64,000 bases of DNA. It comes from Arthrobacter sp. QXT-31. Its GTDB lineage: Bacteria; Actinomycetota; Actinomycetes; Actinomycetales; Micrococcaceae. Numbering within the stretch: the stretch's first letter is position 1; every line of letters starts with the position of its first letter. The notes under the pieces are model-generated. The model made no database searches. It was not told the origin of the DNA and saw nothing but the letters and a program-made list of their open reading frames with translations. The stretch is taken from positions 1,984,001 through 2,048,000 of the forward strand of contig NZ_CP019304.1 in NCBI RefSeq assembly GCF_001969265.1. Reading direction: 5' to 3'. Shown here piece by piece: positions 55,361 to 63,794 of the stretch. Made by a program: the position numbers and the translations under genes.

Positions 55361-56182
55361 TCAGGAGGCGTTGGCGCCTGCCGGAGTGCTCCAGTCCGTC
55401 GCGGGCTGGGCTTCGACGTTGTTGAAGGTGTAGAGGTGGATGCCCGCGAGTGCAGGTTCCGTGGCGGCCAGTTCCGAGACCAGGGACGTGGATGAGTAGC
55501 TGCCGGCGTTCAGGAGCCGGCGCGCGAGCGGTCCCTTGCGGTTCAGGAACTTCAGCGACGGACCAACCCCGATCTTCGTGGCCAGCGAGATCAGCTTGGC
55601 CTTGGGGACGGCCCCGGCCACTCCCGCCCAGATGGGAAGGCCGACACCCTCGCGGCGGAGCAGTTCGGCGTACCAGCCGATCCGGGTGGCCGAGAAGCAC
55701 ATCTGGGTGACCACGCTCGAGGCCAGATGCTGCTTCTCCAAGAGTGCATCGAGCATGTCCAGCTCGTTGCGCTTCGGATGGCCTTCCGGATATCCGGCCA
55801 CGCCGATGGCCATGCTTCCGCCGGTCAGTTCGGCAATGTCCTCCATGAGCCGGAGGCTGTTGCCATAGGGACCGGCGGCTTCCACGGCATCGCCACCGAT
55901 CGCGAAAACCTCGGTGATGCCCGCGGCCTCGCACTCGCGTAGCAGGCCCGCCAGCTGGGTCCGGCTGCTGAGGCCCCGAGCGGCCAGGTGGGGAATCACG
56001 TTGTAGCCGAGCCCGCCCAGCTGCACGGCGGCCCGCACGGTGGCCTCCGGCCCGTGGTGCGGCAAACAGGTCACCGTCAGCGTGGATCCGGCAGGAACGT
56101 GCGCCTGGACGTCGCGGATGATGCCGTCCGTGGGAATGATCTCCAGACGCACCGGCAAGTGGTTGAATCGCACGTTTGTCAC
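55361..56182 (-). CDS. Methylenetetrahydrofolate reductase family protein (short, divergent)
   Basis: Protein of 273 residues with the MTHFR TIM barrel. Recognisable parts are LPVRLEIIPTDGI at the N-terminus, LTVTCLPHHGPEATV, YNVIPHLAARGL with the folate-side His, VFAIGGDAVEAAG in the FAD/NADH loop, and VGVAGYPEGHPK-like IGVAGYPEGHPKRNELD. It would reduce CH2-THF to CH3-THF, but is shorter and less canonical than E. coli MetF (296), recalling non-canonical actinobacterial MTHFRs. GTG 56182 overlaps the purU stop (GTGA). It is the last gene before the 30-bp hairpin. Activity is inferred. Confidence 0.82.
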   Translation of the reverse strand: MTNVRFNHLPVRLEIIPTDGIIRDVQAHVPAGSTLTVTCLPHHGPEATVRAAVQLGGLGYNVIPHLAARGLSSRTQLAGLLRECEAAGITEVFAIGGDAVEAAGPYGNSLRLMEDIAELTGGSMAIGVAGYPEGHPKRNELDMLDALLEKQHLASSVVTQMCFSATRIGWYAELLRREGVGLPIWAGVAGAVPKAKLISLATKIGVGPSLKFLNRKGPLARRLLNAGSYSSTSLVSELAATEPALAGIHLYTFNNVEAQPATDWSTPAGANAS

Positions 56183-57123
56183 CGCAGGATGACCGTCCGG
56201 TTCCCGGACAGGATGATTCTTCCTTCGGCGTGCCAACGCACAGCGTTCGTCAGGGCCTTGCACTCCGCGTCCTTGCCCACGGACGCCAGGTCCGCGGGGG
56301 TGTAGGTGTGGTCGACCTCGATCACCTGCTGCGCGATAATCGGGCCCTCATCAAGCTCTGAATTGACGTAGTGCGCCGTGGCGCCGACCGTCTTCACCCC
56401 GCGCTCATGCGCCTGGTGGTAGGGCTTTGCGCCCTTGAAGCTGGGCAGGAACGAGTGGTGGATGTTGATGGCCCTGCCGGCGAGCCGGGCGGTGGCCGAG
56501 TCACTGAGGACCTGCATGTAGCGGGCCAGGACCACCAGTTCGACGTCGAGCGCCTCCACGAGTTCCAGCAGGGCGCCTTCCGCTTCGGGCTTGGTGGCCG
56601 CTGTCACGGGGATGTGATGGAACGGGATTCCGTGCCAGGCCGCGAGCCCCGCCAGGTCCGGGTGGTTGGACACCACCGCTGCAATCTCCACAGGAAGTTC
56701 GCCGCTGCGGGCGCGGGCCAGCAGGTCGTTGAGGCAGTGGTCGTACTTGGACACCATCACCAGGATGCGCTGCTTGCGGTCGTGCCGCTCCAGGCGCCAG
56801 TCCATGCCCCATTCCCCGGCCAGCGGCGCGAAGCTTTCGCGGAGCTGTTCGACGGCGGTGGTGTCGCCGGCGGCAGTGTCACCCGGGGCGGCGGTTGAGG
56901 CGAAGTGCACCCGCATGTAGAAGTGCCCCGCGCTCCGGTCACCAAACTGCTTGAGGTCCACGATGTAGCACTCCTGCTTGAGGAGGAAATCCGCAACCGA
57001 CTGGACGATCCCGAGCGAATCCGGGCAGGAGAAGGTGAGCACAAACTCCCCGGTTCCGGGCCCGCGGGACTGGGCCGCCGCCGTCGGGCCCGCCGCCGTC
57101 CGCTTTTCCTCGGTGCCGATCAT
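56179..57123 (-). CDS. purU: Formyltetrahydrofolate deformylase
   Basis: Enzyme of 314 residues hydrolysing 10-formyl-THF to formate and THF. The N-terminal ACT domain begins FVLTFSCPDSLGIVQSVADF. The C-terminal formyltransferase-like domain has VSNHPDLAGLAAWHGIPFHH and the catalytic NIHHSFLPSFKGAKPYHQAH plus ATAHYVNSELDEGPII. ATG 57123 overlaps the permease stop (ATGA). It balances C1-folate pools, and here probably recycles THF when glycine cleavage loads it with C1 units. Confidence 0.96.
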   Translation of the reverse strand: MIGTEEKRTAAGPTAAAQSRGPGTGEFVLTFSCPDSLGIVQSVADFLLKQECYIVDLKQFGDRSAGHFYMRVHFASTAAPGDTAAGDTTAVEQLRESFAPLAGEWGMDWRLERHDRKQRILVMVSKYDHCLNDLLARARSGELPVEIAAVVSNHPDLAGLAAWHGIPFHHIPVTAATKPEAEGALLELVEALDVELVVLARYMQVLSDSATARLAGRAINIHHSFLPSFKGAKPYHQAHERGVKTVGATAHYVNSELDEGPIIAQQVIEVDHTYTPADLASVGKDAECKALTNAVRWHAEGRIILSGNRTVILR

Positions 57124-58610
57124 CCCTGGACGCTCTCTTTCTCCTGCTGCCGGCTGTCCGCAACCTCGCGGACGGCGTTTTCCTCGGCGCGCAGCTCGTC
57201 CTGGAAGGCCTCGTAGCGGGCAATGTGGGCAGGCCGGCGGCGCAGCACCAGCCAGGCAGCACCGAGGAGGACGAACCAGACCGGTGTGACCAGCAGGGCG
57301 GCCAGCGTGTCGGGTTGAGTGGTGAGGGTCCACAGCACAAAGCCGAAGAACGCGAAGACCGCCCACACCATGGGAATGCCGCCAGGCATCTTGAACTTGG
57401 AGGCGGTGTGCAGATGCGGGCGCCGGCGGCGGAAGGCGATGTAGCTGGCGAGGATGATCGACCAGACGAAGACGAAGCAGACGGCAGAGACGGTGGTAAC
57501 CATGTCGAACGCCTTGCCCACGTCCTGCCCGGCGTACATGAGCACCACGCCGGAGAGCAGCAGCACGCAGGACAGGAACAGGGCGTTGTTGGGTACCTTC
57601 CGGCGGGACAGGCTGCTGAAGACGGCTGGCGCATCCCCTTCCTCGGCCAGGCCGTAGACCATGCGCGAGGTGGAGTAGATGCCGGAGTTGGCCGACGACA
57701 TCGCCGAGGACAGGACCACGAGGTTGACCACCGTGGCAGCCGCCCCGAGACCGGCCAGCGAGAACATGGCGATGAACGGGCTGTGGCCGGCGGCGAACTG
57801 GGTCCAGGGCGTGACGGACATCAGGATAATGAGGGCGCCCACGTAGAAGAGCAGCACGCGCACCGGAATGGAGTTGATCGCCTTGGGCAGGTTCCTCTCC
57901 GGGTTCTTGGCCTCGGCGGCGGTGGTGCCCACCAGTTCGATGCCCACGAACGCGAACACGGCGATCTGGAAGCCGGCCACGAAGCCCATGAATTCATTGG
58001 GGAAGAAGCCGCCGTGGCTCCACAGGTTGGTGAAGCTGGCCTGCCCGGAGTCGCTCTGGAAACCGGTGAAGATCATGAACATGCCCACGATGATCAGGGC
58101 AGCGATGGCGATGATTTTGATGAGGGCGAACCAGAATTCGGTTTCGCCGAAGGCCTTGACGGTGGTGAGGTTCAGCAGCAGCAGGATGGCCACGGTGGCC
58201 AGGCCGGGGATCCAGAGCGGCAGTCCCGGCCAGAGTTCACGGGAGTATCCGGCGATCGCGATGACGTCCGCAATTCCTGTGATCACCCAGCAGAACCAGT
58301 AGGTCCAGCCGGTGAAAAAGCCCGCCCAGGGGCCCAGCAGGTCGGCGGCGAAATCGCTGAAGGACTTGTAGTTGAGGTTGCTCAGCAGCAGTTCGCCCAT
58401 GGCCCGCATGACGAAGAACAGCATGAAGCCGATGATCATGTACACGAAGATCACCGACGGCCCGGCCGCGGAAATGGTTTTGCCCGAACCCATGAACAGG
58501 CCGGTGCCGATGGCGCCGCCAATGGCAATCAGCTGGATATGGCGGTTGCTCAGCTGCCGCTCAAGGCGCGGAGCTTCCCCGGCCGGGGATGCAGGAGGGT
58601 GAATCGTCAT
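57120..58610 (-). CDS. cycA: Amino acid permease (CycA-like; glycine/D-serine/D-alanine type)
   Basis: APC-family transporter of 496 residues with 12 helices. The N-terminus ERQLSNRHIQLIAIGGAIGT and LFMGSGKTISAAGPSVIFVY, then NLNYKSFSDFAADLLGPWAG and YWFCWVITGIADVIAIAGYS, closely resemble E. coli CycA, a proton symporter for glycine, D-alanine, D-serine and L-alanine. ATG 58610 has GGAG six bases upstream (ATG 58622 is less likely). A tandem glycine riboswitch occupies the leader, which supports glycine as substrate. Alternative: related family members carry other small neutral amino acids. Confidence 0.9.
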   Translation of the reverse strand: MTIHPPASPAGEAPRLERQLSNRHIQLIAIGGAIGTGLFMGSGKTISAAGPSVIFVYMIIGFMLFFVMRAMGELLLSNLNYKSFSDFAADLLGPWAGFFTGWTYWFCWVITGIADVIAIAGYSRELWPGLPLWIPGLATVAILLLLNLTTVKAFGETEFWFALIKIIAIAALIIVGMFMIFTGFQSDSGQASFTNLWSHGGFFPNEFMGFVAGFQIAVFAFVGIELVGTTAAEAKNPERNLPKAINSIPVRVLLFYVGALIILMSVTPWTQFAAGHSPFIAMFSLAGLGAAATVVNLVVLSSAMSSANSGIYSTSRMVYGLAEEGDAPAVFSSLSRRKVPNNALFLSCVLLLSGVVLMYAGQDVGKAFDMVTTVSAVCFVFVWSIILASYIAFRRRRPHLHTASKFKMPGGIPMVWAVFAFFGFVLWTLTTQPDTLAALLVTPVWFVLLGAAWLVLRRRPAHIARYEAFQDELRAEENAVREVADSRQQEKESVQG

Positions 58611-58639
58611 AAGGAACTCCATTGTTCAAGTGGCGCCAA

Positions 58640-58848
58640 TGGCCACACTGACAGGGTTCCTCCCCGCTCTGTACTGGACCTGAGAGATTCCGCGGACATG
58701 GTTGACCGCTTTGCACCTTCGGTGAGCCCGGGCACGCCAGGCTGCTTTTCAGAGTTGCCTCGCCGCGGCGGTACGTGGGCCTGAGAGTTTCCTGGGGAGG
58801 GTTTGCTCCTACGGCGCCCGCTGATGTACCGGCAGGGCTCTCCCGCCG
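58640..58848 (-). ncRNA. Tandem glycine riboswitch upstream of cycA
   Basis: On the minus strand two aptamers follow each other. The first opens with GGGAGAG (complement of 58838-58844) and closes with CTCTCAGG (complement of 58780-58787). The second carries the diagnostic core ACCGAAGGTGCAA (complement of 58711-58723) and closes with CTCTCAGG (complement of 58679-58686). The short linker between the two includes GCGGCGAGGC. Between the second aptamer and the ribosome site a GTGGC/GCCAC hairpin can form near 58632-58648, perhaps the expression platform. Glycine-on control is typical. Confidence 0.93.
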
Positions 58849-58857
58849 CAGATCGTA

Positions 58858-58878
58858 AGCGTTTTCAATTATGAAAGC
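58858..58878. repeat. Near-palindrome in the cycA promoter region
   Basis: GCGTTTTCA / TGAAAGCG inverted repeat centred on AATTAT, just before the minus-strand riboswitch. TTACGATC lies inside or next to it and may be the -10 (TACGAT). It could be a regulator site or part of the promoter. Confidence 0.35.
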
Positions 58879-59035
58879 GAGGGCCGCGGTCCTGCCCTGG
58901 AAGCCCGGTCCGTGCCGGTCAGCCCAGTCCCGCTAGCCACCGGGTTCAGTGTGGTCTCGGTCACGAAGAATTGTCAAACCCCGGCTCCCCGAGGCCTTCA
59001 CGATCCTCGCCGCGGAGGCTTGGCCCGACCGCGTT

Positions 59036-59064
59036 TTGGCATTCGCCGCCCAGTGCTGTACTGT
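59036..59064 (+). promoter_or_regulatory. Promoter of the gcv operon
   Basis: -35 TTGGCA (59036-59041), 17-bp spacer and -10 TACTGT (59059-59064). The transcript would begin about 59071, some 35 nt before the glycine riboswitch. Confidence 0.7.
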
Positions 59065-59103
59065 GTGAGCCGAATCACCCACATCTTCATAGCCTTTCGA
59101 ACC

Positions 59104-59302
59104 GTGGCGGGAGAGTCCTCCCAGTCATGCACCGGGCAGGCGCCGTAGGAGCAAATCCTCCCCAGGAATCTCTCAGGCCCCAGTACCGCCGCGGCGAGGC
59201 AACTCTGGAAAGCAGCCAAGCATTGTTTGGCTCACCGACGGTGCAAGCGGACACCCGTGTCCGCGGAATCTCTCAGGTCCAATACAGAGCGGGGAGGAAC
59301 CC
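59104..59302 (+). ncRNA. Tandem glycine riboswitch upstream of gcvP
   Basis: Aptamer 1 opens GGCGGGAGAG (near 59106-59115), has GGAGCAAAT and closes CTCTCAGG (59170-59177). Aptamer 2 has the core ACCGACGGTGCAA (59234-59246) and closes CTCTCAGG (59270-59277). A linker of about 12-20 nt containing GCGGCGAGGCAACTCTG joins them. Long blocks are identical to the oppositely oriented riboswitch at 58640. Placed before gcvP-gcvT-gcvH, a classic glycine-on arrangement. Confidence 0.95.
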
Positions 59303-59348
59303 AAATCCATGCCGTGCCACCCCTGGCCGGCCAGACCTGGAGTTCCTC

Positions 59349-62201
<2,853 letters not shown>

Positions 62202-62210
62202 GGACCTCCC

Positions 62211-63344
62211 ATGACCGAGAACTACACCGCCCTCTACGACCAGCACAAGAAAGCCGGCGCATCCTTCACCGACTTCGGCGGCTGGCAGATGCCGCTGAAG
62301 TACGAATCGGAACTTGCCGAGCACCATGCAGTCCGCAATGCCGCCGGCCTGTTCGACCTCTCCCACATGGGCGAAGTCTGGGTCACAGGCCCGGACGCCG
62401 CGGCCTTCCTGGACTATGCCCTCGCCGGCAAGCTGTCCGCCATCACGGTGGGCAAGGCCAAATACTCGCTGATCTGCGACGCCGACGGCGGGATCATCGA
62501 CGACCTGATCTCTTACCGCCGAGCTGAGGACAAGTACCTCGTGGTGCCCAATGCGGGCAACGCAGCCAAAGTGGCCGCCGCCCTCGCCGAGCGCGCAGCG
62601 AACTTCGACGTCACCGTCGAGGACGCCTCCTCGGAGACTTCGCTGATCGCGGTCCAGGGTCCCAACGCGGAGGCGATCCTGCTGCAGCTCGTCCCGGCCG
62701 AACAGCACTCCCTGGTAACTGACCTGAAGTACTACGCGGCCGTTGAGGTCGGGATTGCCGTCGGCGGCGCCGTCCAGGATCTCCTGCTGGCCCGCACCGG
62801 CTACACCGGCGAGGACGGCTTCGAGATTTACGTGCCCAATGACGATGCAGCCCGTCTCTGGGAATCGCTGCTCGCGGCCGGCGAAGGGCACGGGCTGGTC
62901 CCCGCCGGCCTCGCCGCCCGCGACTCGCTGCGCCTGGAGGCCGGCATGCCGCTTTACGGCAACGAGCTCTCCCTCCGGGTCAACGCCTACGCGGCCGGAC
63001 TCGGTCCGGTGGTTTCCCTGGCCAAGGAAAGCGACTTCGTGGGCAAGGCGGCGCTGGCCGACCTCAAGGCAGCCGGCGTCGGTTCCACCATCGGGCAGAA
63101 GCTCGTGGGCCTCAAGGGCACCGGCCGCCGCGCCGCGCGCGGCCACTACCCGGTCCTCAAAGACGGCACCCTGATCGGTGAGGTCACGTCGGGCCAGCCC
63201 TCCCCCACCCTCGGCTACCCGGTGGCCATGGCCTACGTCGACGTCGAGCACTCCGAGGTCGGCACGCTGGTGGACGTCGACCTCCGCGGCAAGCCCGAGC
63301 GCTTCGAAGTCGTCGAACTGCCGTTCTATAAGCGCCAAAAGTAA
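62211..63344 (+). CDS. gcvT: Aminomethyltransferase, T protein
   Basis: T protein of 377 residues, transferring the methylene from aminomethyl-lipoyl-H protein to THF and releasing ammonia. It starts with YTALYDQHKKAGASFTDFGG, with folate-binding segments GLFDLSHMGEVWVTG and YLVVPNAGNAAK, then RTGYTGEDGFEIYVP and GLAARDSLRLEAGMPLYGNE. AAGGAC precedes ATG 62211, nine bases after gcvP. CH2-THF made here is the substrate for the MetF-like protein encoded in the divergent operon. Confidence 0.97.
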   Translation: MTENYTALYDQHKKAGASFTDFGGWQMPLKYESELAEHHAVRNAAGLFDLSHMGEVWVTGPDAAAFLDYALAGKLSAITVGKAKYSLICDADGGIIDDLISYRRAEDKYLVVPNAGNAAKVAAALAERAANFDVTVEDASSETSLIAVQGPNAEAILLQLVPAEQHSLVTDLKYYAAVEVGIAVGGAVQDLLLARTGYTGEDGFEIYVPNDDAARLWESLLAAGEGHGLVPAGLAARDSLRLEAGMPLYGNELSLRVNAYAAGLGPVVSLAKESDFVGKAALADLKAAGVGSTIGQKLVGLKGTGRRAARGHYPVLKDGTLIGEVTSGQPSPTLGYPVAMAYVDVEHSEVGTLVDVDLRGKPERFEVVELPFYKRQK

Positions 63345-63410: not shown

Positions 63411-63794
63411 ATGGCAAAGGTTGTTGCTGAACTGAAGTACTCCGCCGAGCACGAATGGGTTGCCGTTGACGGATCCGGGCCTGTGGGCATCGGGATCTCC
63501 GCCGTGGCCGCCGATGCCCTGGGCGATATCGTGTACGTGGACCTGCCTGAGGTGGGCGCTACCGTCACGGCCGGCGAAACGTGCGGCGAGGTGGAGTCCA
63601 CAAAGTCCGTCTCGGACCTGTACGCCCCGGTCACCGGCGAGGTCACCGAGATCAACGACGGCGTCGTCGCGGACCCGGCTCTCATCAACAGCGACCCCTA
63701 CGGTGCCGGCTGGCTGTTCAAGGTGGCCGTCACCGACGAGGGCCCGCTGATGTCGGCCGAGGAATACGCCGCAGCAAACGGCGGCGAACTCTAG
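63411..63794 (+). CDS. gcvH: Glycine cleavage system H protein
   Basis: Lipoyl carrier of 127 residues. The lipoyl attachment site is [20 protein letters not shown] with Lys at about residue 65, in a biotinyl-lipoyl-like fold. [20 protein letters not shown] is the N-terminal strand pair. It shuttles the aminomethyl group among P, T and L proteins. AAAGGAC precedes ATG 63411. The 66-bp gap after gcvT holds no gene. Confidence 0.97.

Follow-up and report, generated by a model that had tools for sequence, protein, structure and literature searches.

Why would a bacterium keep two similar glycine sensors back to back, and do both respond to glycine in the same sense? The question is raised by a locus of Arthrobacter sp. 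QXT-31, which we take to be a soil bacterium, and we analysed it in a window, a stretch of 64,000 nucleotides of the genome. A first-pass annotation had proposed two divergent tandem glycine riboswitches here, a kind of switch known before gcv operons and transporters. This arrangement holds, with one riboswitch before a gcv operon and the other before a transporter gene.

Two homologous glycine leaders between cycA and gcvP

The sequence landmarks named by the annotation are present on both strands: GGGAGAG at 59109-59115 (+) and 58838-58844 (-), GGAGCAAA at 59148-59155 (+) and 58802-58809 (-), two occurrences of CTCTCAGG per strand, and ACCGACGG on the plus strand with ACCGAAGG on the minus strand. 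Its three long blocks are identical between the two leaders. A covariance search with RF00504 (cmsearch) failed neither leader, all four aptamers exceeding the 32-bit gathering threshold (E 1e-11 to 8e-9). On the cycA side (minus strand), aptamer 1 lies at 58759-58855 (60.3 bits) and aptamer 2 at 58659-58762 (49.3 bits); on the gcvP side (plus strand), the aptamers lie at 59098-59198 (60.2 bits) and 59195-59297 (50.4 bits), the positions being genome coordinates minus 1984000. Aptamer 1 scores higher than aptamer 2 in both leaders, and cmscan listed the first aptamer of each leader only, leaving out two overlapping same-clan matches with lower scores. Each leader consists of two adjoining aptamers, whose model ends overlap by 4 bases, with one start codon downstream. 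These matches place both leaders in RF00504, and both are predicted to bind glycine.

The leaders are 79.6% similar over 274 columns (58600-58859 against 59094-59359). This is further than the annotation had followed the similarity, which covers the ribosome site, the start codon and the first codons as well; TGGAGTTCCT[T/C]ATGACGATTCA is part of this inverted similarity (pair I4). By the limits of the alignment, a spacer of 234 bp (58860-59093) separates the leaders and is expected to hold the promoters of both operons; no sigma-70-like promoter was found in it.

The minus-strand leader precedes cycA, a D-serine/D-alanine/glycine transporter (permease) gene (57120-58610; NF008272, 733 bits, cut-off 732), which is followed by purU, encoding formyltetrahydrofolate deformylase (56179-57072; TIGR00655, 316 bits), and a metF-like gene related to methylenetetrahydrofolate reductase (55361-56263; TIGR00676, 68.8 bits, below the cut-off of 293.7). 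The starts of purU and the metF-like gene are approximate, and the metF-like open frame overlaps the end of purU. By CycA, the closest named relatives are Arthrobacter globiformis and A. ipis, at 94% each. On the plus strand, gcvP, encoding glycine dehydrogenase (P protein; 59349-62201, within a longer open frame 58971-62201; TIGR00461, 1327.6 bits), is followed by the aminomethyltransferase gene gcvT (62211-63344; TIGR00528, 365.9 bits) and by gcvH for the glycine cleavage H protein (63411-63794; TIGR00527, 144.7 bits). The products of purU and the metF-like gene would presumably dispose of one-carbon units, so that the minus-strand genes would combine import with one-carbon disposal and the plus-strand genes would carry out cleavage. 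A second copy of gcvP lies elsewhere in this genome (L007) and is preceded by a third tandem glycine riboswitch.

Tandem RF00504 riboswitches of the ON type are known before gcv genes, as in B. subtilis gcvT, Streptomyces griseus gcvP and gcvTH and Neisseria gonorrhoeae gcvT. The leaders of the window share with these the two aptamers, the single platform, the glycine cleavage genes and the tracts of the P5 pairing described below; unlike them, the window has another complete copy, set back to back with the first, ahead of a glycine permease gene. Quadruplet glycine aptamers also place four aptamers in one intergenic region, but there two tandem riboswitches are assembled in series (PMC9481103, accessible part), whereas those of the window point apart and serve different operons. 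We found no account of back-to-back glycine riboswitches in a literature search that included the accessible parts of PMC6944388, PMC12452182, PMC2258182, PMC9481103 and PMC13104608.

Predicted overlapping pairings in the expression platforms

In glycine riboswitches, a C-tract in P3b can pair with a G-tract after aptamer 2. According to the accessible part of PMC13104608, which credits this P5 pairing to Torgerson 2020, it occurs in 66% of aminomethyltransferase glycine riboswitches and is frequent in ON versions and absent from OFF versions; we thus rejected P5 as a new discovery. Both leaders of the window carry its strands. On the cycA side (-), CCUCCCC in the P3b loop of aptamer 1 (58794-58800) would be the C-strand and GGGGAGG directly after P1 of aptamer 2 (58659-58665) the G-strand; on the gcvP side (+), the same two strands lie at 59157-59163 and 59291-59297. 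This CCTCCCC/GGGGAGG complementarity agrees with the ON type as described in the available text of PMC13104608, and from that description, together with the covariation in relatives given below, we infer P5 pairing in the leaders of the window.

A second strand, GAGGAAC, is predicted to cover the ribosome site in both leaders (58656-58662, minus strand; 59294-59300, plus strand). Its complement is GUUCCUC at 59342-59348 on the gcvP side and GUUCCUU at 58617-58611 on the cycA side. In GGAGUUCCUCAUG (59339-59351, +), the Shine-Dalgarno sequence is followed by the spacer predicted to be blocked (59342-59348) and the gcvP start codon; GGAGUUCCUUA (58610-58620, -) comprises the Shine-Dalgarno sequence GGAG, the corresponding spacer and the first base of the cycA start codon. 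The 3' part of both leaders is predicted to fold into this hairpin, at -29.0 kcal/mol on the gcvP side (z -2.55; 1 of 200 shuffles equally stable) and at -22.5 kcal/mol on the cycA side, where the fold is not unusual against shuffles (z -1.47; 16 of 200 equally stable). The P5 and ribosome-site strands overlap at 58659-58662 on the cycA side and at 59294-59297 on the gcvP side, and since these four bases are common to both helices the two pairings are mutually exclusive. No terminator-like site was found in 58550-59400, which favours translational control; the predicted pairing of the ribosome site with the switching strand, with no intrinsic terminator in that interval, is the pattern of a translational riboswitch.

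The same elements recur across the genus. GGGGAGG follows P1 of aptamer 2 in all 65 aligned genus leaders, CCTCCCC is present in 64 of the 65 (CCTCTCC in L035) and GGAGTTCC likewise in 64, the deviating leader being L032; a variable hairpin lies between GGGGAGG and GGAGTTCC. Loop and tail can form a run of at least 5 pairs in all 28 extracted cycA leaders, and one of at least 5 consecutive Watson-Crick pairs in 191 of the 197 leaders of an earlier sampling, shares that are biased upwards because the extraction required a G-run after ACAG (7 loci were left out).

A proposed shared ON switch for import and cleavage

Taken with the covariation in relatives, the aptamers, the genes and the mutually exclusive complementarities lead us to favour, with somewhat better than even confidence, two homologous translational ON switches that would drive a divergent glycine-use unit and co-induce uptake and cleavage by strand exchange. 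Without glycine, GAGGAAC, 3' of aptamer 2, would pair with GUUCCU(C/U), which separates the Shine-Dalgarno sequence from the start codon, and this helix would block the ribosome. With glycine, the folded aptamers would let GGGGAGG pair with CCUCCCC of the P3b loop of aptamer 1, and formation of P5 would open the ribosome site, by the same scheme in both leaders. The window differs from ON-type gcv riboswitches in that the P5 G-strand overlaps the predicted ribosome-blocking strand; in N. gonorrhoeae gcvT, the blocking strand has been proposed to come from aptamer 2 (PMC13104608, accessible part). We found no earlier mention of this overlap, or of an ON-type cycA leader in a back-to-back pair, in the accessible parts of the papers searched, Torgerson 2020 itself lying outside the search, and we regard this as weak evidence of novelty.

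As both leaders look like ON switches, glycine should raise CycA along with GcvPTH. Co-induced import would be unusual, because glycine switches of transporter genes are typically OFF: OFF versions typically control sodium-alanine symporters (PMC13104608, accessible part), and a transporter-linked case is that of Streptococcus pyogenes (PMC5829553, also accessible in part). By that precedent the cycA leader could be an OFF switch, through which glycine would repress import while inducing cleavage. We consider this unlikely, since the cycA leader has a platform of the gcvP type, with the P5 strands, the strand overlap, the ribosome site and the start codon, whereas P5 is absent from OFF versions as described in the accessible text. 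Like OFF-type riboswitches, the cycA leaders place a glycine sensor before an amino-acid transporter gene; unlike them, they have the ON-typical P5 strands. The leaders of two DUF5058 transporter-like genes of the family (L055 and L060), which are without CCUCCCC/GGGGAGG, also speak against an OFF-type cycA leader, but they are not a clean comparison: L055 keeps CCCGC/GCGGG (5 pairs) and L060 GCCC/GGGC (4 pairs), and we dropped them as OFF comparators because of these loop/tail runs. Under the preferred ON reading, the cycA leader is a candidate counter-example to the rule that a transporter means OFF.

The G-strand after aptamer 2 may also be a shared switching strand of Actinomycetota in general, in either P5 or the ribosome-site helix, which would explain glycine-ON translation there. 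In Arthrobacter-like bacteria, cycA and the metF-like and lipA-like genes would then have acquired a spreading cassette of aptamers, platform, ribosome site and start codon, by which glycine would induce its own import along with its breakdown. We hold this broader proposal tentatively, at close to even chances. For translational glycine ON switches of this phylum, it provides a strand-exchange model that can be tested.

Covariation of the two helices in relatives

In a swap test, the pairing of each leader's own strands was compared with that of strands exchanged between leaders, with one random leader per genus or family. For the tail and the ribosome site, own strands outdid swapped ones both among the 72-73 leaders of the genus-level draws (three draws; 0 of 20000 shuffles) and among the 32-33 leaders drawn by family, where P was 0.033, 0.002 and 0.002 by energy and 0.0006, 0 and 0 by the longest Watson-Crick run. 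A control of the tail against the 22 nt that lie further upstream was as positive, probably owing to extension of the tail into the same hairpin, and the test therefore does not isolate the Shine-Dalgarno helix. A control with the pre-tail gave a weak signal for genera (energy P 0.009 and 0.035) and none for families (energy P 0.23 and 0.48). The tail/Shine-Dalgarno runs are short in some leaders of family f22 (3 in L153, 4 in L155).

These results bear on another reading of the platform, in which the P3b loop hides GGGGAGG as a standby or decoy ribosome site and no strands are exchanged. The strand does resemble a Shine-Dalgarno sequence, and the ribosome-site swap test is confounded by its own upstream control. 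Distant relatives with different sequences, however, keep the tail/ribosome-site complementarity, as GGAGGCC/GGCCUCC in L109, GGGAGCAC/GUGCUCCC in L118 and GAGGAUGG/CCAUCCUC in L110. We therefore regard a decoy site as rather improbable and retain the strand exchange between P5 and the ribosome-site helix.

For the loop and the tail, the strands of P5, the swap test gave energy P of 0.0002-0.0014 at genus level (80 leaders) and of 0.096, 0.125 and 0.023 at family level (35 leaders), with 0.013-0.039 in further draws. By Watson-Crick run, P was 0.018-0.047 at genus level and 0.61, 0.45 and 0.027 at family level, and further draws gave 0.18 and 0.21 for genera and 0.048 and 0.021 for families. 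The controls were mostly negative, with P 0.045 by run for the loop against the pre-tail in one draw and P 0.046 by energy for the loop against the Shine-Dalgarno sequence in one of six draws. Since both strands are nearly invariant, this test is underpowered; we dropped it as sole proof of P5 and sought variable pairs in families f22 and f62.

The f22 sample comprised 55 loci, of which two gave no extraction; after repeats were dropped, 50 leaders were left. Their loop/tail helix of 7 bp has standard pairs in 348 of 350 cells. One pair varies, being C-G in 26 leaders, U-G in 14 and U-A in 10 and never C-A (Fisher P 1.9e-4, a value that counts sequences, not events). On a tree of GcvP fragments with 48 rows, the tail base shows 5 changes, 4 of them forced by supported branches, and the loop base shows 9. 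Across independent pairs, loop and tail never change in opposite directions, with mostly 2-3 informative pairs and thus no power. A compensating change at a different position is seen in family f62, where loop CCUCCCU faces tail AGGGAGG (L334). At the level of sequence, this covariation supports the P5 pseudoknot; the ribosome-site helix is supported less cleanly.

Why the two leaders are alike

The annotation had read the locus as an inverted duplication of a complete sensor whose copies stay similar by gene conversion or selection. Selection is the reading that we favour; conversion of the whole pair is not supported. Over 21 genomes, the distance between cycA and gcvP leaders is 0.249 within a genome and 0.251 between genomes (permutation P 0.196), so that over the whole leader same-genome copies are no more alike than others, as they would be under concerted evolution. 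A tree of 65 leaders groups them by gene, not by genome: the divergent gcvP leaders form a clade of their own (100/99), and the cycA leaders lie elsewhere. The equal distances and the grouping by gene suggest a pair that predates these species and has been kept mainly by selection, the copies resembling each other chiefly through a constraint common to the glycine leaders of the genus.

The long shared blocks had been taken as a sign of recent duplication, and two of the three are simply widespread in the genus: GGCGCCGTAGGAGCAAA is exact in 65 of 67 genus leaders and CAGAGCGGGGAGGAACCC in 44. The third, GCCGCGGCGAGGCAACTCTG, is less common: 13 of the 67 have it exactly (48 with at most two mismatches). 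Among the 21 divergent genomes, both copies are exact for GGCGCCGTAGGAGCAAA in 20, for CAGAGCGGGGAGGAACCC in 9 and for GCCGCGGCGAGGCAACTCTG in 2, namely that of the window and L015, and a short local conversion tract at GCCGCGGCGAGGCAACTCTG is possible.

That gene conversion between the inverted copies is the main source of their likeness is nonetheless very unlikely in our judgement, given the equal distances and the sorting by gene. We rejected conversion between the divergent leaders because the whole-leader permutation test was without signal. Besides the restriction of GCCGCGGCGAGGCAACTCTG to two genomes, the window's included, what speaks for conversion is that the gcvP coding sequences of this genome seem to convert, that the metF and gcvP leaders of one relative (G009) group together with support, and that P was 0.03-0.1 for 5 of the 17 overlapping segments; we take these five segments as noise. 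The pair offers a case of paralogous riboswitches whose likeness appears to rest largely on selection, in a genome whose gcvP coding genes carry signs of conversion.

An origin by inverted duplication of the neighbouring sensor, as the annotation had it, is no more than a candidate. The cycA leaders are nearer to leaders before gcvP, metF or lipA elsewhere than to the gcvP leaders opposite them; support for this is modest (93/77; 86), and capture from another copy is therefore as likely as inverted duplication. Nor did we find the inversion of the spacer that inverted arms could bring about. With arms of ~260 bp, inverted and 234 bp apart, the leaders might act as DNA, inverting the promoter spacer and so swapping the promoters of the two operons. 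Among 27 spacers, three of them from the same place in G002, all 728 spacer-spacer hits have the same orientation and none is inverted relative to the genes; this comparison, which is one between genomes, speaks against inversion. We find a role of the arms in DNA inversion scarcely credible, and selection on two long-established leaders remains the preferred reading.

The two gcvP genes of this genome (59349-62201 in the window; 417-3287 in L007) form a mosaic. They are 96.1% identical over nt 290-780 and 96.7% over nt 1390-1600, with 77% over nt 0-280 and 73% over nt 800-1380. Over nt 290-780, the identity of the L007 copy to ten further gcvP-alone copies from the genus reaches only 84-89%, and the pattern points to gene conversion within the coding sequence.

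Distribution of the pair and other glycine leaders

RF00504 matches occur in at least 60 of 61 genus genomes, and cycA and gcvP leaders stand back to back in at least 21 of the 61, the window's included, on the evidence of 40 genus regions chosen among the matches listed. The arrangement, which the annotation had proposed to look for in relatives, thus recurs. About twenty such natural pairs are at hand, and in each of them a single metabolite and a single platform would serve both import and breakdown within one cell. Of 583 relatives by CycA, 80 named loci were kept: 12 have both leaders, 10 the cycA leader alone, 5 a divergent gcvP with its leader and none seen before cycA, and 53 neither, leaders being detected by motif patterns and some contigs stopping near cycA. 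The pair is also present in Intrasporangium calvum (L276) and in a genome of another family (L092); both are on long branches, and the arrangement may have had a single or a double origin. In wider draws, which overlap one another, genomes with any RF00504 match numbered 36 of 41 (family), 23 of 39 (order), 29 of 40 and 90 of 118 (class) and 26 of 100 (phylum).

In genomes G009 and G035, a metF leader matches its own genome's gcvP leader at 97-98% identity over 281-298 bp; for G009, the two also cluster with support. Such near-identity indicates that leader copying happens and that the copied cassette includes the ribosome site and the start codon.

Four genus genomes have an extra leader before the metF-like gene of the cycA cluster (L019, L026, L087 and L107); in L019 and L026 this leader shares 97-98% identity with that of gcvP and lies inverted to it, ~3 kb off, around cycA-purU. 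On the minus strand of L032 (G005), a glycine leader of the same type precedes a lipA-like gene (LIAS_N, 35.9 bits, cut-off 27); the lipA product makes the lipoyl group needed by GcvH. Leader-like DNA also occurs on five records of a plasmid collection (NZ_AP024648.1, NZ_AP024649.1, NZ_CP053546.1, NZ_AP024656.1 and NZ_CP096037.1; hosts Arthrobacter, Paenarthrobacter and Rhodococcus), with 83-92% identity over 10-34% of the query. In L119 (G145), a resolvase-domain gene (PF00239) follows a glycine riboswitch, possibly through insertion of a mobile element between the switch and its gene. Finally, in L088 (G135, C1:1010972-1019768) two glycine riboswitches face each other across ~8 kb, one before gcvT-gcvH-gcvP and the other at the far end before another gene.
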